Shown piece by piece: positions 270 to 21,876 of a DNA stretch of 23,102 bases (position 1 is the first letter of the stretch; every line of letters begins with the position of its first letter). The notes beneath the pieces are model-generated. The model was not told where the DNA came from and ran no database searches. It saw only the letters and a list, made by a program, of their open reading frames with translations. A program made the position numbers and the translations under genes. The stretch is from the IMG/VR virus record IMGVR_UViG_3300017598_001288, positions 1-23,102 of that record, one strand, 5' to 3'. Source of the DNA: a virus.

Positions 270-2963
270 ATGATAACCAAAAGTAAAGCTATTAAATCTT
301 TTCTTCAAGCGAAAACCCGCAAGGATTTGGCAAATCTTTATTCTTTAAAAATGGAGTGCCAAGTTAATGTTGCTCAAGATGGTGGTGATCGTATTGAAGG
401 AGAATATAAAGGAAGAAAATGGCATGGTTGGACTGATAGTCTAACAACTTGGAAATCTTTTAGAATACCATTTAAAGCTAATACTGATCCTTATTACCAA
501 GATTCCAAAATGTCTTTTGATTTAGAGTCTCATGTTGAAGGAATTGGAATGACAGGTTGGGATTGGGATAATCAAGTTAGTAAGTGGGTTGCTTTTGACT
601 TTGATGCTTTGATTGGGCATTCTGATAAACATTCTAAAAAATTAACAGATAAAGAATTAACAGAAGTCAAAGAAGCAGCCTTAAAAATTCCCTGGGTAAC
701 TGTTCGCCGTTCAACAAGTGGAAAAGGTCTTCACCTATATGTTTTTTTAGATTCTATTCCTACCAGTAATCATAATGAACATGCAGCTCTCGGTAGAGCG
801 ATATTAGGAATTATGGCAGCCATTACAGGTTTTGATTTCACAAATCGTGTAGATATTTGTGGTGGCAATATGTGGATCTGGCATCGTAAAATGGAAGGAA
901 CTAATGGATTAGAGTTACTTCAACAAGGAACAATTTTTAAAGATATTCCAAAACATTGGAAAGATCATATTAAAGTTATTACAGGTCGAAGAAGAAAAAA
1001 TCTTCCACAAGACATCGAACAAAGTGGAACTGTTGATATATTTGAAGAACTTTCAGGACAATATCCTAAAATTAAACTTGATGAAGAACATAAAAGACTT
1101 ATTAATTTTTTAAGAGAAAGTAATGCCATTTGGTGGTGGGACCAAGATCACTATGCACTAATCACACATACCTATAATTTAAAACAAGCTTTTATAGAAT
1201 TAAATTTAAGAGGGTATTTTGAAACTTCTTCGCAAGGATTAAATTTAAATGAGCAAAACTGTTTTATGTATCCTCTCCAACAAGGTGCCTGGGCTGTTAG
1301 AAGATTTACAACAGGCGTTCAGGAACATGATTCTTGGGATCAAGATGGAGCAGGATGGACAAGGTGTTATTTTAATCGTATCCCAACACTGGAAACTGCT
1401 TGCCGGGCTTTTGGAGGACTTGAAAATACTAAAGGGGGATTTGTTTTTAGAGATGCAGAGTCAGCTGTTAATGCAGCAGCTTTACTTGGTGTCCATTTAA
1501 AAATTGGATTACCTCAACGAGGACGTCAAACTATTCTTAAACAACATAAAGATGGTCGATTGATTTCTGAAATCAGTCATGATGTTAATGATCGATCAGA
1601 AGAAATGGGAGGCTGGCTTCCTGATGTTAAAAAGAAAATTTGGACAAAAATTCATAATGTAAGAACCTCACTTCCTACAGAAACTGAACATTCAACTTTT
1701 GATGATACTGTTAGACATTTAGTTACAACAAATAGTGAAGATTATGGTTGGATGATTCGAAGTGATAATTTATGGAGAACGGAACCTTTAACACATATAA
1801 AAGTTGCTTTAGCTGCATTAGGATTAAGTACCAAAGATATAACTAATACCTTAGGTTCTTCAATTTTTAAATGTTGGACATTAGTTAATAAACCTTTCCA
1901 ACCCGAGTACCCAGGAAATCGTCAATGGAATCGAAATGCAGCTCAATTAAGATTTACACCATCTATTAAAGAAAATCTTAATTATCCTCACTGGTTGAGT
2001 ATATTAAATCATTGTGGTGAAGGTCTTAACCAAGCTGTTAAACAAAATAGCTGGTGTAAAGCTAATGGAATTTTAACTGGTGGTGATTATCTTAAATGTT
2101 GGATCTCTTCGATTTTTAAAGAACCAGATGAACCTCTACCATATCTTTTTCTCTATAGCCAACAACAGGGAACTGGTAAATCTATTTTTCATGAGGCATT
2201 AAGTTTACTTTTAACAAAGGGATATATTCGAGGTGATGCTGCTCTAATTAGTCAAGGTGGATTTAATGCCGAACTTGAAGGTGCTATTATCTGTGTTGTT
2301 GAAGAAACTGATCTTCGAAGAAATCATACAGCTTATAATAGAATAAAGGATTGGGTGACTGGTCGTGAGGTTCTTATACACGTTAAAGGGAAAACTCCTT
2401 ACCATATTAAAAATACAACTCATTGGATTCAGTGTTCTAATAATCACCAAGCTTGTCCTATTTTTTCTGGAGATACTCGAATAACAATGAGTTATGTTTC
2501 TCCTATTGATCCCTTAAATCTTATTCCTAAAAAGAATTTAATCCCTTTACTTGAGCAAGAAGCCCCTGATTTTTTAACAGCTGTTTTAAATCTTGAACTC
2601 CCACCATCTAATGACAGATTAAATATTCCTGTTTTAGAAACTGAAGATAAAAAGATTCTTCAACAGCTTAATGAATCTGATTTAGAGAGATTTATCCGAG
2701 AAAGTTGTGATTCAATTTTTGGCTCAGTAATTAAACAAAGTGAATTTTATGAACTTTTTATGGCTTGGATAGATCCTGAAGAAGCTTATAAATGGTCGAA
2801 AATTAGAGTTGGTAAAGAATTACCTGCACAATATCCTCGGGCAAGATTAAGAGGATCAGGTCAATTTTATATTGGAAATATCATGTGGAAAGAAGGAGAA
2901 AAACCTAAAAAACCACAAAAATATATTGTTGTTGATGGGTATCTGGAATATGAAAACGATTAA
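270..2963 (+). CDS. Primase-helicase (AEP primase plus SF3/D5-type helicase)
   Basis: This 897-aa protein probably primes and unwinds phage DNA at replication. The N-terminal part shows archaeo-eukaryotic primase signatures: DFD at residues 110-112 (metal-binding), SGKGLH at 150-155 and a third acidic position near D195 followed by WIWHRKM. The C-terminal part is a P-loop helicase: Walker A GTGKS at 634-638, a Walker B-like hydrophobic strand ending in EETD at about 672-681, and a sensor-like segment with SNN and a following Arg near TRITMS. Family knowledge says such fusions load and translocate as hexamers at phage or plasmid origins. The ATG at 270 follows GGGGAATCA. It is the first and largest gene of the rightward arm and overlaps the next gene by 14 bases. 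The domain calls are strong; the exact subfamily is not assigned. Confidence 0.9.
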   Translation: MITKSKAIKSFLQAKTRKDLANLYSLKMECQVNVAQDGGDRIEGEYKGRKWHGWTDSLTTWKSFRIPFKANTDPYYQDSKMSFDLESHVEGIGMTGWDWDNQVSKWVAFDFDALIGHSDKHSKKLTDKELTEVKEAALKIPWVTVRRSTSGKGLHLYVFLDSIPTSNHNEHAALGRAILGIMAAITGFDFTNRVDICGGNMWIWHRKMEGTNGLELLQQGTIFKDIPKHWKDHIKVITGRRRKNLPQDIEQSGTVDIFEELSGQYPKIKLDEEHKRLINFLRESNAIWWWDQDHYALITHTYNLKQAFIELNLRGYFETSSQGLNLNEQNCFMYPLQQGAWAVRRFTTGVQEHDSWDQDGAGWTRCYFNRIPTLETACRAFGGLENTKGGFVFRDAESAVNAAALLGVHLKIGLPQRGRQTILKQHKDGRLISEISHDVNDRSEEMGGWLPDVKKKIWTKIHNVRTSLPTETEHSTFDDTVRHLVTTNSEDYGWMIRSDNLWRTEPLTHIKVALAALGLSTKDITNTLGSSIFKCWTLVNKPFQPEYPGNRQWNRNAAQLRFTPSIKENLNYPHWLSILNHCGEGLNQAVKQNSWCKANGILTGGDYLKCWISSIFKEPDEPLPYLFLYSQQQGTGKSIFHEALSLLLTKGYIRGDAALISQGGFNAELEGAIICVVEETDLRRNHTAYNRIKDWVTGREVLIHVKGKTPYHIKNTTHWIQCSNNHQACPIFSGDTRITMSYVSPIDPLNLIPKKNLIPLLEQEAPDFLTAVLNLELPPSNDRLNIPVLETEDKKILQQLNESDLERFIRESCDSIFGSVIKQSEFYELFMAWIDPEEAYKWSKIRVGKELPAQYPRARLRGSGQFYIGNIMWKEGEKPKKPQKYIVVDGYLEYEND

Positions 2964-3153
2964 AGAAACATTAGACTCACTAAAAGAGCATGAAAAACAA
3001 CAGCTTATGTATGGTTTTGAGCATGAGTTTGCTCAATTTGTATGTTTAGAAAATCATAAGTTTATAGGAGTTAATGTCAAAAATATTAAACATCTTGAAA
3101 TTGAACAAGAAGCTGGTAATTGGGCAATGGGAATCATTAAAGGAAAGGAATAA
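2950..3153 (+). CDS. Hypothetical 67-aa protein
   Basis: A small soluble protein of unknown function, beginning MKTIKETLDSLKEHEK. The start at 2950 lies just inside the end of the primase-helicase gene (14-base overlap), which fits translational coupling; the longer reading frame back to 2872 would overlap far more without a better ribosome site. The predicted N-terminal helix is charged and amphipathic, and the rest could be a small alpha/beta domain. Its stop TAA shares a base with the ATG of the next gene (TAATG). It belongs to the early operon; I do not recognise the family. Confidence 0.65.
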   Translation: MKTIKETLDSLKEHEKQQLMYGFEHEFAQFVCLENHKFIGVNVKNIKHLEIEQEAGNWAMGIIKGKE

Positions 3154-3430
3154 TGCAATATGTTGAATATGAATGGGCTAAAAAAATAAAGTTGTAGGCT
3201 TAACAATCTATGAATGGATAAAATTAAGACCTAATCTTTCTTTAAAAACCAGAGGCCAAGTTATTAATGACTGGCGGCGAGGTACAGTATTGCTAAATAT
3301 AGGTGAAAAACCTTTAGTAACTTCAGCTAATCAAAAAAGTCAAGATACTTGGATTAAAAATCAAATTAATCCTGATTTTCATCAAAAACAATATTTACAA
3401 AAATATTTAGAAGGAGTATGGAAACTATGA
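3153..3430 (+). CDS. Frameshifted small early gene (needs -1 shift at A7)
   Basis: A ribosome binding site (AGGAAAGGAA) precedes ATG 3153, which overlaps the previous stop as TAATG. In that frame only 14 codons follow, starting MQYVEYEWAKK. At the A7 run 3180-3186 a -1 change joins this to a frame that is open for 81 more codons to TGA at 3428-3430, giving a 92-aa product. The downstream frame has no usable start near its beginning, is preceded by a stop, and its TGA overlaps the ATG of the next gene as ATGA, so both ends look genuine. It includes YEWIKLRPN and a VINDWRRG stretch, but I recognise no family. It is either recoded by slippage, as in the tail chaperone, or carries a real or assembly-made one-base change in the homopolymer. 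Confidence 0.65.
3180..3186 (+). other. A7 slippage site in small early gene
   Basis: Seven A residues read in the zero frame as GCT AAA AAA ATA. Slipping the second Lys codon back one base gives AAT AAA GTT and the long open frame. The phase (Lys-Lys codons followed by the seventh A) is the same as at the chaperone site at 20801-20807. Confidence 0.5.
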
Positions 3431-3531
3431 TTATTGTTTGGTGTTGTGTAGCTTTTGGAGTAGGTTATTTTACCCGTTGGGGTACCCAACGTTTTATTGA
3501 CTGGGTAGAAAGAGAGGTAATTGATGGCTGA
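3427..3531 (+). CDS. Small membrane peptide, 34 aa
   Basis: A short gene starting at ATG 3427, overlapping the previous stop as ATGA, with AGGAG at 3412-3416 upstream. An in-frame ATG at 3418 would add three residues but sits only one base from the Shine-Dalgarno. The N-terminal half (MIIVWCCVAFGVGYF) is a hydrophobic segment long enough for one short membrane helix; the C-terminal half is charged and amphipathic. The gene overlaps the start of the methyltransferase gene, whose ATG is at 3524. Function unknown; coupling to both neighbours supports that it is real. Confidence 0.55.
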   Translation: MIIVWCCVAFGVGYFTRWGTQRFIDWVEREVIDG

Positions 3532-4405
3532 TTTAACAAATCTATTTGATGAACTTGATAGACAAAGCTATGAAGAAGAAGATGAAAAAAGTCATGAAGT
3601 TACTATTCGTGCTCCTTTTGGTTATCCAGGTGGTAAATCAAAGATAGCAGCAATGATCATTAACCGTCTTCCTTATAGGAATAAATATATTGAACCTTTT
3701 GGAGGATCAGGAGCTATTTTATTAGCTCGAAAACCCAGTTGCTTGGAAGTATTAAATGATCGCTATGCTGGAATTGTTGCTTTTTATCGTTGTTTAAGAT
3801 ATCCAGAAAAATATAAAGCTTTAATTGATTATCTTGAGTTAACGGTCCATAGCCGAGAAGATTTTGTTGATGCAAAACAATCGTGGTGTGAAGAAAAAGA
3901 TGATGTTGTCAGAGCAGCCAAATGGTATTATATGATTAATTATAGTTTTGGTTCTCTTGGCAGAAACTTTGGAAGATCAACTAATGCTCGTGGATTAATG
4001 TCAGGAAAAATTAGAAATAAACTTAAACTTTTTCCATATATTCATGAAAGACTCAAAAAAGTTCAAATTGAAAATCAAGATTGGGCTACTTGTATAAAAG
4101 ATTATGATTCAAGAGATACTGTTTTTTATCTTGATCCCCCTTATGTTGATGTTTACCAAGGGACTTTTGTCCATGAAATTAATAAAGATCAACATTATAA
4201 AATGTTAGATATAATTTTCCAATTAAAAGGATTCGTTGCTTTATCAGGTTACTCAAATCCTTTATATGAAGATCAACCTTGGGATAATAGATTTGAATTT
4301 CCAAGTTTTGTTTCTATCAATAGTTGTACAGCAGTTAAAAATAATTACAGGAAATGCTTAACTAAACGTGAACCTGTTCAGGAGGTTTTATGGATCAAAG
4401 AGTAA
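3524..4405 (+). CDS. DNA N6-adenine methyltransferase, D12 class (Dam-like)
   Basis: This 293-aa enzyme should transfer a methyl group from S-adenosylmethionine to adenine N6 in phage DNA. The D12-class order of motifs is visible: FGYPGGKSK at 32-40 (motif X), EPFGGSG at 57-63 (motif I, cofactor loop) and DPPY at 204-207 (motif IV, catalysis). The length is normal for the family. The start at 3524 has AGAGAGG six bases upstream; the TTG three bases earlier is a less likely start. No cognate restriction endonuclease is seen next to it, so a solitary role is likely: evading host restriction, or marking DNA for replication or packaging. Which sequence it methylates cannot be read from the protein. 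The next small gene starts inside its 3' end. Confidence 0.92.
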   Translation: MADLTNLFDELDRQSYEEEDEKSHEVTIRAPFGYPGGKSKIAAMIINRLPYRNKYIEPFGGSGAILLARKPSCLEVLNDRYAGIVAFYRCLRYPEKYKALIDYLELTVHSREDFVDAKQSWCEEKDDVVRAAKWYYMINYSFGSLGRNFGRSTNARGLMSGKIRNKLKLFPYIHERLKKVQIENQDWATCIKDYDSRDTVFYLDPPYVDVYQGTFVHEINKDQHYKMLDIIFQLKGFVALSGYSNPLYEDQPWDNRFEFPSFVSINSCTAVKNNYRKCLTKREPVQEVLWIKE

Positions 4406-4518
4406 TAAAAATTACAGATTACCTCAAAGAAAAAAATAAAAAGACTAAGGAAAAAGTTAAAAAGAAGCTTCAACGAGCTATTCGTAAAAATGAACTATGG
4501 AAAAGAAAGGAGGAATAA
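4390..4518 (+). CDS. Small highly basic protein, 42 aa
   Basis: A short gene beginning MDQRVIKITDYLKEKNK, with ATG 4390 four bases after GGAGG and overlapping the end of the methyltransferase gene by 16 bases. Lys and Arg make up nearly half of the protein, which looks helical and could bind DNA or RNA. Its stop TAA shares a base with the ATG of the exonuclease gene (TAATG), and its 3' end holds that gene's ribosome site. Function unknown; the tight fit between two real genes is the main evidence for it. Confidence 0.6.
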   Translation: MDQRVIKITDYLKEKNKKTKEKVKKKLQRAIRKNELWKRKEE

Positions 4519-5147
4519 TGGCTAAAAGTATGCAGCATTGGAATAATAATCAATTATGTGTGATTGATACAGAAACAACTGGAGTCGATTATTTTTGGCA
4601 TGAAATAATTCAAATATGTATTCTTCCACTTAACTCAAATATTGAAGTCAGAAAAGATGTTTTACCTTTTTATATTTTTTTACAACCTGATTATCCTGAG
4701 AGGATAGATCCTGAAGCAATGAAAAAGAATAAAATTAAATTATCTGATTTAAGAGATCAAGGATTTGATAGATTAAAAGCTGTTGATATGCTTGAAGATT
4801 GGGTTAAAACATTAGGAATAGGTTTTAATAAATATGGTTATCCTGCTAAAATAACTCCCTTAGGCCATAATTATTCTTTTGATATGGGATTTCTTAATAG
4901 GTGGTTAGGTAAGAGTTTATATGATGAAATTTTTCACTATCACCATAAAGATACAATGATAGCTGCTAATTGGCTTAATGATGCTGCTGCTTTTAAAGGA
5001 GAAAAAGTTCCTTTTCCTAAAGTTAATCTCCAGTATCTATGCAATATACTCAATGTACAATCAGAAAGAGCACATGATGCTCTCTCTGATTGTGTAAGTA
5101 CTGCTGGAGTTTATAAGAAAATGTTAAATATGGGACTTTTCTTTTAA
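4518..5147 (+). CDS. DnaQ-like 3'-5' exonuclease (DEDDh)
   Basis: This 209-aa protein has the three exonuclease motifs of the DnaQ/DEDDh superfamily: DTET with D17 and E19, a second motif NYSFD with D122, and H186 with D191 in HDALSD. These residues bind two metal ions that cut nucleotides from DNA 3' ends. The start at 4518 is preceded by AAAGGAGGAATA, an excellent ribosome site; the in-frame ATG at 4497 lacks this. No DNA polymerase gene is visible, so the exonuclease could proofread for a host or phage polymerase, or trim DNA in recombination. It is the last rightward gene, and its last 24 bases overlap the end of the first leftward-strand gene. Confidence 0.9.
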   Translation: MAKSMQHWNNNQLCVIDTETTGVDYFWHEIIQICILPLNSNIEVRKDVLPFYIFLQPDYPERIDPEAMKKNKIKLSDLRDQGFDRLKAVDMLEDWVKTLGIGFNKYGYPAKITPLGHNYSFDMGFLNRWLGKSLYDEIFHYHHKDTMIAANWLNDAAAFKGEKVPFPKVNLQYLCNILNVQSERAHDALSDCVSTAGVYKKMLNMGLFF

Positions 5148-9900: not shown

Positions 9901-10655
9901 ACTGTTTTTCCCCCATAACTATAACTTGTGTTTATTGTGTAGTAACTGGAGGGAACTTCAAAGAAACCTGGCTTCCCATAACAGTTACGTTTAGCAAAAA
10001 CTCCTTGAACTGATGCTGAACTAACAAGATTAATTATATAAATTAAATCATAGGCAGTCATTTCAGGATCTACAATTAATTCTTCTTCTGTTGGTTCAAT
10101 TTGTTGAACTTTAACAGCCTTAACCATTTTTGGATTGCCAAAAACTATTGGCCAAGGAATATTAATAGCTGAATCAAGTAAATTTTCTATTGAATCTTCA
10201 ATGGGAGCAAAACCAACTTCACCAGTTCCTATGAAAGATTCAATACTTGCAGTAAAAATTCTTTCTCCTTCCGACCAATTAATAGGACCAGCAATTTTTC
10301 CTTTTATAATTATGGCAGCATCTGAAGCTGGCAAATCAGCATAATGATGGTAAGCTGTTGCAACTACTCCTTCAATTATATCAGTATTTATGCGATCTTT
10401 CAAATCACTATCAGTATCATCAAGACTAAAGTCAATAGAAGAAACTTCACTAATAGAACCTATTCTCCCTTGACTTTTAACAGATCGATCTTCAGGTAAT
10501 AATCGAGTTTCACAAACATTACCATCAAAGGTATAAGTTTTTTCAGAATAATATTTTGTTCCTGATGGCCACTCAATTTTAAGAATGAAAAGAGGCTCAG
10601 TCCCAAGAGGAGTTTGTGAACGTATTTCTGCATCTGTTGTTAGTATTTTAGACAT
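6915..10655 (-). CDS. Tail hub / tail-tip protein, 1246 aa
   Basis: The largest gene. Position after the tape measure and minor tail proteins, its length, and the segment WPIVFGNPK (about residues 165-180), which recurs in phage tail-hub proteins, point to the central tail-tip protein that seals the tail tube and holds receptor-binding parts. The first 540 residues look like the hub (mixed beta domains, ending in a segment with VASSAGTATG); the rest, rich in Asn, Asp, Tyr and Gly, is variable in style and may be the host-contact part. No clear peptidase or lysozyme motif was found in it. ATG 10655 overlaps the protease stop as TAATG. The hub call is moderate to good; receptor binding is inferred. 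Confidence 0.75.
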   Translation of the reverse strand: MSKILTTDAEIRSQTPLGTEPLFILKIEWPSGTKYYSEKTYTFDGNVCETRLLPEDRSVKSQGRIGSISEVSSIDFSLDDTDSDLKDRINTDIIEGVVATAYHHYADLPASDAAIIIKGKIAGPINWSEGERIFTASIESFIGTGEVGFAPIEDSIENLLDSAINIPWPIVFGNPKMVKAVKVQQIEPTEEELIVDPEMTAYDLIYIINLVSSASVQGVFAKRNCYGKPGFFEVPSSYYTINTSYSYGGKTVTAILMDQPLSTQDDSGWEDEIYISLTSSLSSNTATQIKWIIDTYATGLTTDAASFSSVASDLTNLPSHWVLFSQPDPLQLAEEMAWQCRCALIKRGGVVFIQNLANVPDSVFPLTANEIELKSSNLKFSDTDEIVTKLIANWKTDYSDEAESSKEFIYTNNTGQFGTIDQTQDFYIYTNLECIKVAATFWGYRYSNSWRQLDMVTFLPTLPLEPFDWVDLNLLIFSEYSLPALILSVGHNVSDHRIEIECEVASSAGTATGGQPSLDSGYYDAGDEYIPGSPPNPVASVELHTICEPLIDGETINNITTYGDSQCLKCRIVDGSSVGYLCHEIVGLERDGTYKFDQDGNRVETNILLLGSPTKSNQEPDKIVFTNPDSIFGGQVGCCYSASSPQWVDYDLNPGIHPNYSESNQTRVGDTVGTIKGSKELSKKSFGFNVMGVDGGEIAVTNGSLDPKLEKIKADEAIEAYNPAENRGSFDNEYTIVQKPSANSLPAGGIIFPIQDLAAGEEGLGYNAFDLSAFSDGTEPSAIGVELGTKADSFELNEFDDEGNPLEGFVFTGRKGGKNQVRPFRQKRGIIYACLLETNFKQYWNGRSNPDGDAWAYECFLDSNNCLVTPEQIYKIFYIEVKNQIPYLRTEEQLFQYSLGTSFNQNLFRHWLQEYSSSPEDYFNEYFNNGCSGNYYIADPFGVASIDRYNLNLPDGQKILIEASLHGIVCITGKESNIENFNLSDSWIDIGLYYNDEYQSEKWRVYGINPDPWDAPDHIKNAYSEWPPVTSGSRWFTKQCDHLTANESGEYKDGNNTIGIEDVYRIEKPSEVAAWAVKGAEQGRLYNQLNNNQFVHNIISTQFKKLRIEQPEIGLYRIYIGIGETRIEGYDSHSLIQIADNTNAWESRSWIIKFDLQNHEILNYQSGFEVFFEFFDDETVLYDSDLEIDRIGARLFGTNSLSDELSVSGATTFLTILDQQKLDLENQGFTVSNTLNSPLLKEVGDD

Positions 10656-11728
10656 TAGCTAATTACCTGTAATTTTTTCTTAGGATAAACTTGAGCTTTA
10701 CAATCAGCACAAGTACTAAAATTTCGCTGCATTGGATGTGTTAATGTTTTAATCGTTGTTCCAACATATTGATAACATCGACCACCAGCCATTATAAAAG
10801 GGTATTCAGTTTCAGATACTATATTACCATCCCAAGCTTCAATTTGAAGATCAGTTGCTATCTGTCCTATATGATTAGCAAATCCCTGTGTACCATCTTC
10901 ATTACCAGCAAAAAGTAATCCTATGATTTTCCAGATCCCTGCACTTTGAACTAATATTAATGAGCCAGAATCTCCTGGTTGAAGAAAAGGAGTAAGTGAT
11001 TCAACCATCATTTGATTATAGTAATCAGCATAATCACCATTACTATTAACTCTGGCTGCAACTTCATTTGAGATAATTGTTCCTTGTGTCAATTCTGTTG
11101 TTCGTCCCATTTTATAAGCAGTGGTTCCTGGAGCATACTCAAGAGATGAACTAAGAAACTCAAAAGGTCCTCTTGAAATATTTCTAATATCTGTTTTCAT
11201 TAAACCAGCTGCTAATGTTATAATAGCTGCATCTACATAATTTTCACCTTCATCCCCAAATTGTGTTGCTATTGCCCTTTTGGGATTTCCAATATTATCA
11301 GCATCAGTTGTTCCCCCATCATTATAAGAAGGTTGTCGCATGTTAATATGTGAAATTGCAGTATTACCATAAACTGGCCAAACATAATTAATATCAAATA
11401 AGGTTCCAGCACAATGGTTACAGGTTAAAGCAACGAGTGCACCATCTAAGGAGTCCCGAACAATTCCGCCAAGAGTACCAGAACCTAAATTTGATTCAAC
11501 ACAACTAATCCCACCCATTAGAGGTCGGAAACGTTGAAAAGCTTTAATAACTCCTCGCTCAATAACATCAGTCCGTAGTCCATCTTTATAACGAGGAACC
11601 ACATCTTTAGCCTTCAATTCACTAAGAGGAAGTTTCTTTGTTACTTGGACAATTAATTTACCTTTATTTTTATAGACAGCTGTAACATTAGCTAATCTAA
11701 GTACAGAGTTCATATTCGCGATTTGCAT
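10655..11728 (-). CDS. Trypsin-like serine protease within the tail gene cluster
   Basis: This 357-aa protein shows a PA-clan (chymotrypsin/trypsin) triad: His105 in TCNHCAG, Asp166 in NYVDAAI and Ser254 in PGDSGSL. Other family marks are GSGTLGGIVRD before the His and YKMGRTTELTQGTI between Asp and Ser. From memory this layout resembles the NAL1-like group of bacterial/plant trypsin-like proteins. No signal peptide is seen. The C-terminus holds a CADC pair. The start 11728 has GGAGAG upstream; the longer frame to 11827 would overlap the previous gene by 131 bases. It sits between tail-fibre-type genes and the hub, so it could mature tail proteins or ride in the virion and cut host surface proteins. 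Activity is expected from intact triad residues but its role is inferred. Confidence 0.82.
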   Translation of the reverse strand: MQIANMNSVLRLANVTAVYKNKGKLIVQVTKKLPLSELKAKDVVPRYKDGLRTDVIERGVIKAFQRFRPLMGGISCVESNLGSGTLGGIVRDSLDGALVALTCNHCAGTLFDINYVWPVYGNTAISHINMRQPSYNDGGTTDADNIGNPKRAIATQFGDEGENYVDAAIITLAAGLMKTDIRNISRGPFEFLSSSLEYAPGTTAYKMGRTTELTQGTIISNEVAARVNSNGDYADYYNQMMVESLTPFLQPGDSGSLILVQSAGIWKIIGLLFAGNEDGTQGFANHIGQIATDLQIEAWDGNIVSETEYPFIMAGGRCYQYVGTTIKTLTHPMQRNFSTCADCKAQVYPKKKLQVIS

Positions 11729-12104
11729 TACCTTCACTCTCCACTTCAAAAGTAAAATAACATTCTCCTGAATTTCCTCCTCTTCCAGTACTATAGATTT
11801 CAAAAATCGGAAAAGGAGCAAGTCCATTATTTAATCCACCACCAGTTGCCTCAACACTAAAACTAAATTCACTTTCACCAGCACTTAAATTTTGACTATG
11901 AGCATTAATAGAAAATTCAACTTCACCCCAATTAATCTGATAGCCTTCAACTAAAGCATCAATAGGAGGAAAAACACATCTTCCTTGCCCATCACCTGAA
12001 AGTCCTGAACTTTCAACTTCAAAATTAATTATTAAGAAACCCTCACCTTCATTTTGATTATCAGTGATCGTTTCAATATTCTGTATATAATCTAATAGTC
12101 TCAT
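11697..12104 (-). CDS. Tail-associated protein with 18-residue repeats, 135 aa
   Basis: Beginning MRLLDYIQNIETIT, this protein is mostly a tandem repeat of 18-19 residues. Units begin with Phe and a beta strand: F28 (FEVESSG), F64 (FSINAHS), F82 (FSVEATG), F101 (FEIYSTG) and F119 (FEVESEG); the spacing 28 to 64 equals two units, one of them degenerate. Each unit is a strand, a Gly/Ser/Asn turn and a second strand, suggesting a regular beta stack as in fibre shafts. Such a protein could be a small fibre or tail decoration. No strong ribosome site is visible, so coupling to the upstream gene is likely. It overlaps the protease gene start by 32 bases. Confidence 0.6.
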   Translation of the reverse strand: MRLLDYIQNIETITDNQNEGEGFLIINFEVESSGLSGDGQGRCVFPPIDALVEGYQINWGEVEFSINAHSQNLSAGESEFSFSVEATGGGLNNGLAPFPIFEIYSTGRGGNSGECYFTFEVESEGNANREYELCT

Positions 12105-20038: not shown

Positions 20039-20599
20039 CTAACTCCTAACTCGAAGATCAACTGTTGAGTAAGCATTAAGAAGAATATTTAAATCTTTAG
20101 GTAAATAATCAGTATAATTAGTTTCTATAAATCTTATAAAAGCTTGTCGTCCAGCTTCTAATGTTTGCCAAGTAGGTTCATGGAACCAATATTGAAACAC
20201 TTTAATACGAAATTCAAAATTTATAAGAGGTTGATTAACATTACCAAAAGTTAATGTATAAGCATTATAGCCAGCTTTAACACCAGCATCAATATCCCTT
20301 TTACTATTACGATACCATGTTCCACTAAGTGTTTCACGACCTTTTCTATAAGCTCGTTTTCGTCGTTGGACAACTACATCAATAATTGTTGTACCTACTT
20401 CTTGGGCTAAAGGTTCAAGAGAAGCAGCTGACATACCAGTATCAATAACAATGTAATTTTGGACTATTGTATGTACAAAAACTCGAACTGCTTCTCTTGT
20501 CAATTCTTGAATCTGTTTATGGTGAGCTTTAGCATAATCAGCTATTTGTTTTTTAAATCGAGTCATATTGACTCTTGTATAGCGAATAGTTGTTGGCAT
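20039..20599 (-). CDS. HK97 gp10-like tail-completion/neck protein, 186 aa
   Basis: Begins MPTTIRYTRVNMTRF, with a basic helical N-terminus and then VIDTGMSAASLEPLA, the D-T-G motif typical of HK97 gp10-like or minor tail Z-like proteins. The C-terminal part has an aromatic helix (FQYWFHEPTW). In many phages this protein lies between capsid and major tail genes; here it comes after the chaperone and before the tape measure, so a tail-joining role is possible but the place is less usual. Its ATG shares a base with the stop of the frameshifted chaperone extension (TAATG). Confidence 0.55.
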   Translation of the reverse strand: MPTTIRYTRVNMTRFKKQIADYAKAHHKQIQELTREAVRVFVHTIVQNYIVIDTGMSAASLEPLAQEVGTTIIDVVVQRRKRAYRKGRETLSGTWYRNSKRDIDAGVKAGYNAYTLTFGNVNQPLINFEFRIKVFQYWFHEPTWQTLEAGRQAFIRFIETNYTDYLPKDLNILLNAYSTVDLRVRS

Positions 20600-21266
20600 T
20601 ATCCCATTTTCGCTCCTACTAAAGCAGCTTGTTGTTCAGATTCGTCATACTCTCTAATTTGATCATAAGCAATTAAATGAGCCTGTGCCCAAACACTACA
20701 CTTATCCCATGATTTCTCAGATCCAGGAGGTAAGATTTTAAAACGTTCACAAGCACGCCAGATGGCATAGTTTTCTGATCTATATTTAGGAAACTTTACC
20801 TTTTTTTCTCCACCTGACGACCAGCTAAAAAACTTTTAGTTGCTTGATCAATTTTATCTTGATCAAGTCCTTGAACTTCAGAATAAGCTTGCATTAACTT
20901 TATTTGCTCAGGTTCTGGAAAAGCTTTTTCAAGTTCTTTCATATAATTTTCCCAAGTATCTGGCTTCTCCATATCGACAGTTTCCCATTCTAAATCTTTT
21001 GTAATACTTATAGATGTAAGAAATTGCCAATATACTTTTTTTAAACCCCAAGCATCAATAGCTTTTTTAAATTCTGGATTTTCTACATCTGCTTGTTTAG
21101 TTCCTCCTGGTAAAAGTTTTATCGGAGGTTCAGGTATTGGACATAATTTATGAAAGTCCTTATCATCTAAAATAGCCTGAAATTCAAAAACTAAATCATC
21201 ACCATCTCTTGGAAAAACAACAGTTTTAATATACGGACCTTTTAATTTTTTACCTTTAATCTTCAT
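20599..21266 (-). CDS. Tail assembly chaperone, frameshifted long form (gpGT-like), 222 aa
   Basis: Translation of the chaperone gene to its A7 run, then a -1 shift, joins 155 residues to a 67-residue extension that ends at TAA 20601-20599. The extension (KVKFPKYRSENYAIW, ACERFKILPPG, VWAQAHLIAYDQIREYDE) has no start codon before its last three codons, yet looks protein-like and ends exactly at the next gene's ATG. Long-tailed phages commonly produce G and GT-type chaperones by this mechanism between the major tail protein and tape measure genes; GT binds both during assembly. The shift itself is inferred, not measured. Confidence 0.82.
20796..21266 (-). CDS. Tail assembly chaperone, short form (gpG-like), 156 aa
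   Basis: Starts MKIKGKKLKGPYIKTVVF at 21266; a longer frame to 21500 is rejected because it would run inside the upstream gene. It is a mixed alpha/beta protein with an acidic helical C-terminal half and ends in EKKR. It lies between the probable major tail protein and the tape measure, the usual place of the G-type chaperone, which coats the tape measure during tail assembly. GAGGGAAAGAGAG lies upstream. Family assignment rests on position, the following frameshift and general pattern, not on recognised motifs. Confidence 0.75.
   Translation of the reverse strand: MKIKGKKLKGPYIKTVVFPRDGDDLVFEFQAILDDKDFHKLCPIPEPPIKLLPGGTKQADVENPEFKKAIDAWGLKKVYWQFLTSISITKDLEWETVDMEKPDTWENYMKELEKAFPEPEQIKLMQAYSEVQGLDQDKIDQATKSFLAGRQVEKKR
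20801..20807 (-). other. Probable programmed -1 frameshift site
   Basis: Seven A residues on the - strand, read in the zero frame as GAG AAA AAA AGG TAA. One-base backward slip on the second Lys codon gives AAG GTA AAG and the 67-codon extension. A purine-rich GGTGGAG lies just upstream. The zero frame stops two codons later, typical of such sites. No strong downstream hairpin or pseudoknot was seen by eye. Transcript slippage on the A7 run is an alternative to ribosomal slippage. Confidence 0.75.
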
Positions 21267-21345: not shown

Positions 21346-21876
21346 TTACTGAGCAGCTCTAACAATAGTAGGAGTAAGAGCATTACATTTACCAGTACAA
21401 CTAACAGTTCCAGCCCTGAGATCATGGTCAAGAGTCTCATATCGAAAATCTGGAAAAGTAATTGTTTCTTGATCACCACAAGTTGTTGGTACAGGTGCAT
21501 AAATAACTTCTATATCAATAGCATAAGGCCGACAAGCATTACCAGCTCCAGTATCTGAAGAAACCCAAGTACTTGCTTCACCAGTATTTTTAAGAGCTTC
21601 CTCAACAGTAGGTGTTCCACTTGCAGCCAAAGCTGTTATATAGTCCCAAATAAAATCAAAAGATACTTCCATTGGAACTTGATCCCCTTCTCTGACTTCA
21701 TCTAAATTACCACGATCAAGGACATATTCAATATTTTTATTCTCTGAATATGTTAGATTTCCTTCACCAATGGTTATTGAAATCTCTTCAGGAGTACCAG
21801 TTCCATCTTTAATCTTAAATGTTGTGTTTTTAAGATCAATGATTGCGAAAACAGGTATCCAAGGTTTACAAAACAT
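21346..21876 (-). CDS. Probable major tail protein (tail tube), 176 aa
   Basis: Begins MFCKPWIPVFAIIDLKN, with AGGAGTAGATT before the ATG. The N-terminal part (TTFKIKDGTGTPEEISITIGEGNLTYSE is the region) and the EVREGDQVPMEVSF strand pattern are typical of tube-forming proteins: mostly beta sheet with a helix (FIWDYITALA). Four Cys residues in the C-terminal half (ACRPYA, TTCGDQ, VSCTGKC) are unusual for this family and could bind a metal or form contacts. It lies between the tail-completion candidate and the chaperone gene, where the major tail protein is expected. After its stop comes the two-hairpin gap. Confidence 0.72.
   Translation of the reverse strand: MFCKPWIPVFAIIDLKNTTFKIKDGTGTPEEISITIGEGNLTYSENKNIEYVLDRGNLDEVREGDQVPMEVSFDFIWDYITALAASGTPTVEEALKNTGEASTWVSSDTGAGNACRPYAIDIEVIYAPVPTTCGDQETITFPDFRYETLDHDLRAGTVSCTGKCNALTPTIVRAAQ

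Follow-up and report, generated by a model that had tools for sequence, protein, structure and literature searches.

Programmed -1 frameshifting in the tail chaperone gene is already known from lambda, P2 and many other phages, and the question raised by the locus considered here is whether an uncultivated phage, the chaperone gene of which is without sequence similarity to known families, uses the same device and, if so, on which bases the ribosome shifts. The locus belongs to the window, by which we mean the whole stretch that was analysed, the 23,102-base virus record IMGVR_UViG_3300017598_001288, in which the chaperone region lies on the minus strand. This phage probably makes a long tail-assembly chaperone by a -1 ribosomal slip, and the site of the slip is not the one to which the eye is first drawn.

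Reading frames of the chaperone region

The gene of the short product, ORF1, comprises 156 codons and runs from an ATG at 21266 to a TAA at 20798-20796. A second frame, in the -1 phase, is open over 234 nt, from 37 nt before the ORF1 stop down to a TAA at 20601-20599, the last base of which is also the first base of the ATG of the next gene (TAATG). The sole ATG, GTG or TTG of this frame in the window is an ATG placed two codons before its stop, so that a preliminary description of the region was right to see a second frame which lacks a start of its own and ends at the next ATG. As an estimate of what chance would produce, 77-codon stretches inside the other genes of the window were read in their -1 frame, and none of 3786 was open. 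Coordinates, missing start and absence of chance openings together make the earlier account of the reading frames correct, and simple annotation would indeed, as that account had foreseen, report the short product only and miss the extension. Its figure of 67 codons holds as a length counted from the run of seven A (A7) where it had placed the shift, 65 codons lying 3' of the ORF1 stop; what it overlooked is that the opening is situated further upstream, at TTTTTTA (Table 1).

Table 1. Features of the window around the frameshifted gene
Feature	Position	Strand	Basis or remark
Tape measure protein, 1090 aa	16764..20036	-	PHROG tail length tape measure protein, E 5.5e-29; Pfam PhageMin_Tail, E 1.4e-21
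Next gene, 186 aa, no assigned function	20039..20599	-	its ATG shares a base with the TAA of the -1 frame (TAATG)
Extension in the -1 frame (T-like domain) of 75 codons, predicted to be translated solely upon frameshift	20602..20826	-	alignment of 60 sequences; AlphaFold2
Predicted long product (GT-like), 222 aa, 25.7 kDa	20602..21266	-	assembled from the two frames; expression inferred
Possible stem CGUCAGGUGG/CCAUCUGGCG, from 6 nt 3' of the heptamer	20756..20819	-	predicted folding
ORF1, short product, putative tail assembly chaperone (gpG-like), 156 aa	20796..21266	-	homologues; AlphaFold2 model; structure matches
A7 run, slip site of the earlier proposal; at most accessory	20801..20807	-	present in the window, in none of the 65 other homologues
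Slippery heptamer T_TTT_TTA (U_UUU_UUA), proposed -1 frameshift site	20826..20832	-	in-phase conservation in homologues
Major tail protein, probable from its position alone	21346..21876	-	immediately upstream in 65 loci

A slippery heptamer fixed in phase

An initial scan of viral contigs gave nine relatives and a later profile scan 80 loci which, taken with one further locus (L010) and the window, amount to 66 distinct cases. The distinct homologues share 32-58% identity with the ORF1 of the window, the 66 fall into 46 clusters at 60% identity, and those which hold TTTTTTA have a median pairwise ORF1 identity of 43%. As all the search patterns lay upstream of the heptamer, the slip site was not selected by the search. 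No relative appeared among annotated phages in tblastn searches with ORF1, with one of its relatives and with the upstream gene, nor did profiles of ORF1 and of the upstream gene match anything in bacterial genomes, whether prophage or host.

The second frame is in the -1 phase in all 66 distinct homologues and is lost in none; in every one of them its opening coincides with, or precedes, a site of the NNT TTT TTA type that is in frame. The site reads TTTTTTA in 57 cases, TTTTTTG in three, TTTTTTT in two, TTTTTTC in one, TTTTATA in two and TTTCTTA in one, and an X_XXY_YYZ heptamer, lying in phase where the two frames overlap, is hence kept in the form TTTTTTN in 63/66. The codon preceding TTT specifies eight different residues and yet ends in T in all 66, where codon usage would lead one to expect 24.9; the Phe codon of the site is TTT in 65 (32.9 expected) and the codon that follows is TTA in 58 (10.0 expected). 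This constancy is not that of general nucleotide conservation, since an invariant Ala four codons upstream of the site uses all four of its codons (27/17/14/8). Elsewhere in the ORF1 of the homologues an in-frame TTTTTTN was met at none of 9500 codon positions, and one homologue (L063), with an ORF1 of 69% G+C, still keeps TTTTTTA. The 0-frame stop, by contrast with this fixed element, wanders between 3 and 123 nt 3' of the heptamer. Conservation and phase of the heptamer are in this sense directly observed.

The second frame as a protein domain

Directly 3' of the heptamer, an alignment of 60 sequences delineates a conserved domain, P..R...YAIWRACER.gI.PPgv...WD......QA.liAY.QIR.yEe, the P..R motif of which starts 12 codons downstream of the heptamer in 62 of the 66 homologues. 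Where the overlap is long (23 homologues), mean column identity is highest in the -1 frame, at 0.675, the 0 frame having 0.546 and the +1 frame 0.510. The second frame is thus kept as a protein throughout the 66 homologues, in keeping with the earlier claim that a -1 frameshift joins it to the tail chaperone. The AlphaFold2 model of this T-like domain is confident (pLDDT 86); sequence and profile searches of PHROG and PDB gave no convincing match for it, and a search by fold nothing convincing.

Alternative explanations

The preliminary description had the slip take place at GAG AAA AAA AGG, that is on the A7 run, which lies 25 bases downstream of the start of the heptamer. The run is real, it is inside the frame overlap, and a -1 shift there, be it of ribosomes or of RNA polymerase, would enter the identical downstream frame, through a fusion keeping LAGRQVEKK before it. 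Yet, when homologues were aligned through the run, as had been suggested by way of a check, the conserved and phased site proved to be T_TTT_TTA at 20832-20826 instead: A7 is found in 0/65 other distinct homologues, in which the longest run of A is five, while the gene strand of the window carries nine A7 runs. Present in the window only, frequent on its strand and standing beside a TTTTTTA that is conserved, the run has therefore to be rejected as the slip site. Furthermore, G AAA AAA in its 0-frame phase does not match X_XXY_YYZ, and the peptide that the -1 frame encodes between the two sites (S.SGG) is similar to the peptide of the relatives. We leave scarcely any probability to a slip at A7 and, the run being the wrong site, the AGRQVE of the product drawn from it gives way to SWSSGGE in the likely one. 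A compromise, in which most slips would occur at TTTTTTA and A7 would contribute by accident, has in its favour that both are in the overlap and feed one frame; we consider it unlikely, A7 being confined to the window and showing no sign of selection.

If the heptamer is the place, one may still ask whether it is RNA polymerase, not the ribosome, that slips on the run of T. The six-T homopolymer seen in nearly all homologues would speak for transcriptional slippage, but six bases are short for a slipping polymerase, the constant A that follows them (TTA in 58/66) and the constant codon phase are what one would expect of tandem tRNA slippage, and in the variant sites TTT ATA and TTC TTA the run is interrupted or shortened, all of which makes this explanation highly improbable. 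To regard the -1 frame as an independent gene, started by itself or through re-initiation at a non-standard codon, is more hazardous still. It is true that in 12 of the 66 homologues the scanned frame shows some ATG, GTG or TTG, be it in the interval from heptamer to WRxC motif or further along; these starts, however, sit at inconsistent positions, and 54/66 have none between heptamer and motif. Nor would independent translation have fixed TTTTTTA in the phase of the upstream gene. With no start in that interval in those 54 and, but for the near-terminal ATG, none in the window, we reject a separate gene with its own start and attach practically no weight to this reading.

Identity of the short product and gene order

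What kind of protein is extended in this way has to be approached through structure, as ORF1 gave no convincing match in sequence and profile searches of Pfam, PHROGs and PDB, which leaves room for a distant relative. Its AlphaFold2 model is confident (pLDDT 90). Foldseek alone found no significant match for it in PDB, its best viral match being an uncharacterised protein of Bacillus phage Staley (E 1.5e-3). Comparison with solved structures placed at the top YqbN (3klu; Z 6.0, rmsd 4.0 over 99) and the tail assembly chaperone of HK97 (2ob9; Z 4.9, rmsd 5.5 over 93), the next-best chain, at Z 2.5, coming well below both. With 13% identity and such rmsd values, these best matches are distant from ORF1, and the moderate Z scores support a shared chaperone fold short of proving it.

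Gene order adds to this picture. ORF1 lies between a putative major tail protein gene upstream, the product of which has no family match, and a tape measure gene downstream, from which one gene separates it. The tape measure gene was found downstream in 46 homologue loci, and the intervening 186-aa gene was recognised in 39. The likeness of the model to a chaperone and this arrangement of genes are direct observations; a known tail chaperone and YqbN being top-ranked for the model, and the gene order besides, make the case for ORF1 as a probable tail chaperone. Two further observations concern the surroundings of the locus. Within the virion structural gene module, positions 10655-11827 (minus strand) encode a protein resembling proteases (PHROG 'protease', E 1e-31) with a weak, below-cut-off Pfam match to Nal1_C, and the opposite strand carries, at 270-5147, genes of the replication type (DUF5906 primase-like, D12 adenine methyltransferase and DnaQ-like exonuclease).

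Possible stimulators

The stimulatory signals of the frameshift are uncertain. No downstream structure was visible according to the preliminary description, which has to be amended for the window itself, where a 10-bp stem is predicted 6 nt 3' of TTTTTTA (-16.0 kcal/mol, z -2.2). Across relatives RNAalifold found no consensus pairing in the region downstream of the heptamer. The mean folding z of the homologues is -1.24 downstream of the heptamer and lies between -0.14 and -0.18 upstream of it. When co-varying stems were sought by a swap test, the strongest value, z -4.6, fell just 3' of the heptamer; it is suggestive but not decisive, since upstream control sites reach -4.1.

Signals 5' of the site may also be considered. 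Among the homologues, 29/66 have a GAGG resembling a Shine-Dalgarno (SD) sequence, separated from the heptamer by 10 nt on its 5' side as in a similar way the dnaX stimulator is from its slip site, and at the fifth codon before the slip-site Phe GAG is used over GAA in a ratio of 32:11, against 117:223 (p 7e-7). No GAGG or SD-like motif precedes the heptamer of the window.

Proposed mechanism

We hold it very likely that a -1 slip at T_TTT_TTA produces a 222-aa chaperone with a T-like domain beside the 156-aa short form; both the slip itself and its low efficiency are what we infer. Most ribosomes would finish ORF1 at its stop, releasing the 156-aa chaperone, while a minority, having reached the codons AGT TTT TTA, would slip one base back on the heptamer, the tRNA-Phe in the P site and the tRNA-Leu in the A site re-pairing one base upstream, from UUU UUA to UUU UUU. 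Translation would then resume at AGC and end in the 222-aa protein, with a predicted junction ...ATKSFL/SWSSGGEKKVKFPK... (the stroke marks the passage to the second frame) and the T-like domain at its C-terminus. By analogy with the HIV heptamer, some of the long molecules would be expected to carry Phe instead of Leu at the junction (PMC5009743). It speaks against the proposal that, in E. coli, U_UUU_UUA is reported to be much less shift-prone than A_AAA_AAG (PMC5009743), although a low shift efficiency fits the role of a chaperone. On the model of lambda G and GT, the short form would coat the tape measure protein and the long form would in addition recruit the major tail protein (PMC5009743). 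It is from that same model that the presumed roles of the two forms, and their presumed low ratio, are borrowed.

Comparison with known systems

The present case is a sequence-divergent example of the known frameshifted tail chaperones, well supported and ordinary in kind. As in lambda, the chaperone is encoded upstream of the tape measure gene and the second frame is in -1; whereas lambda slips on a site of the GGGAAAG type, the phage of the window has T_TTT_TTA, a conserved gene of 186 aa comes between its chaperone and tape measure genes, and the two systems show no sequence match. The short and -1 frameshifted forms of the lambda chaperone, G and GT, stand in a molar ratio of 30:1 (PMC5009743). 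Another parallel is found in the E/E+E' genes of P2 and of the P2-like phages KS5, KS14 and KL3, where the -1 frameshift occurs at T_TTT_TTG, towards the 3' end of a tail gene adjoining the tape measure gene, with a second frame that has no initiation signal and a downstream structure that is not clear (PMC3091744, PMC3931495). The locus of the window resembles P2 in these respects; unlike P2, most members of the family of the window have a heptamer ending in A. In HIV-1 gag-pol the heptamer is the identical U_UUU_UUA, with Leu or Phe at the junction (PMC5009743), a likeness limited to the slip sequence, the genes being unrelated and a bacterial-type ribosome being presumed for the phage. Among the open-access papers searched, none evidently reports a TTTTTTA/UUUUUUA heptamer in a phage tail gene, and we do not claim it as new.

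The slip site, hence the sequence of the long protein, is corrected here for a chaperone family without match in annotated phages, Pfam or PHROGs. A word of caution follows for AT-rich phages, in which the most conspicuous homopolymer is not necessarily the place of the slip: homologues decide.

Natural variants of the site

The slip site is available in 66 natural variants, three of them imperfect, which constitute a test set for the requirements of -1 frameshifting in bacteria. One may tentatively go further and imagine, though we would rather doubt it than not, that a widespread group of uncultivated phages fixed the HIV-type U_UUU_UUA, in many cases preceded at 10 nt by an SD-like stimulator, and that the imperfect U_UUU_AUA and U_UUC_UUA of a few members work mainly by slippage of a single tRNA, in the P site. 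The members concerned, L074 and L079 (T_TTT_ATA) and L082 (T_TTC_TTA), have kept the -1 frame domain despite their imperfect heptamers.
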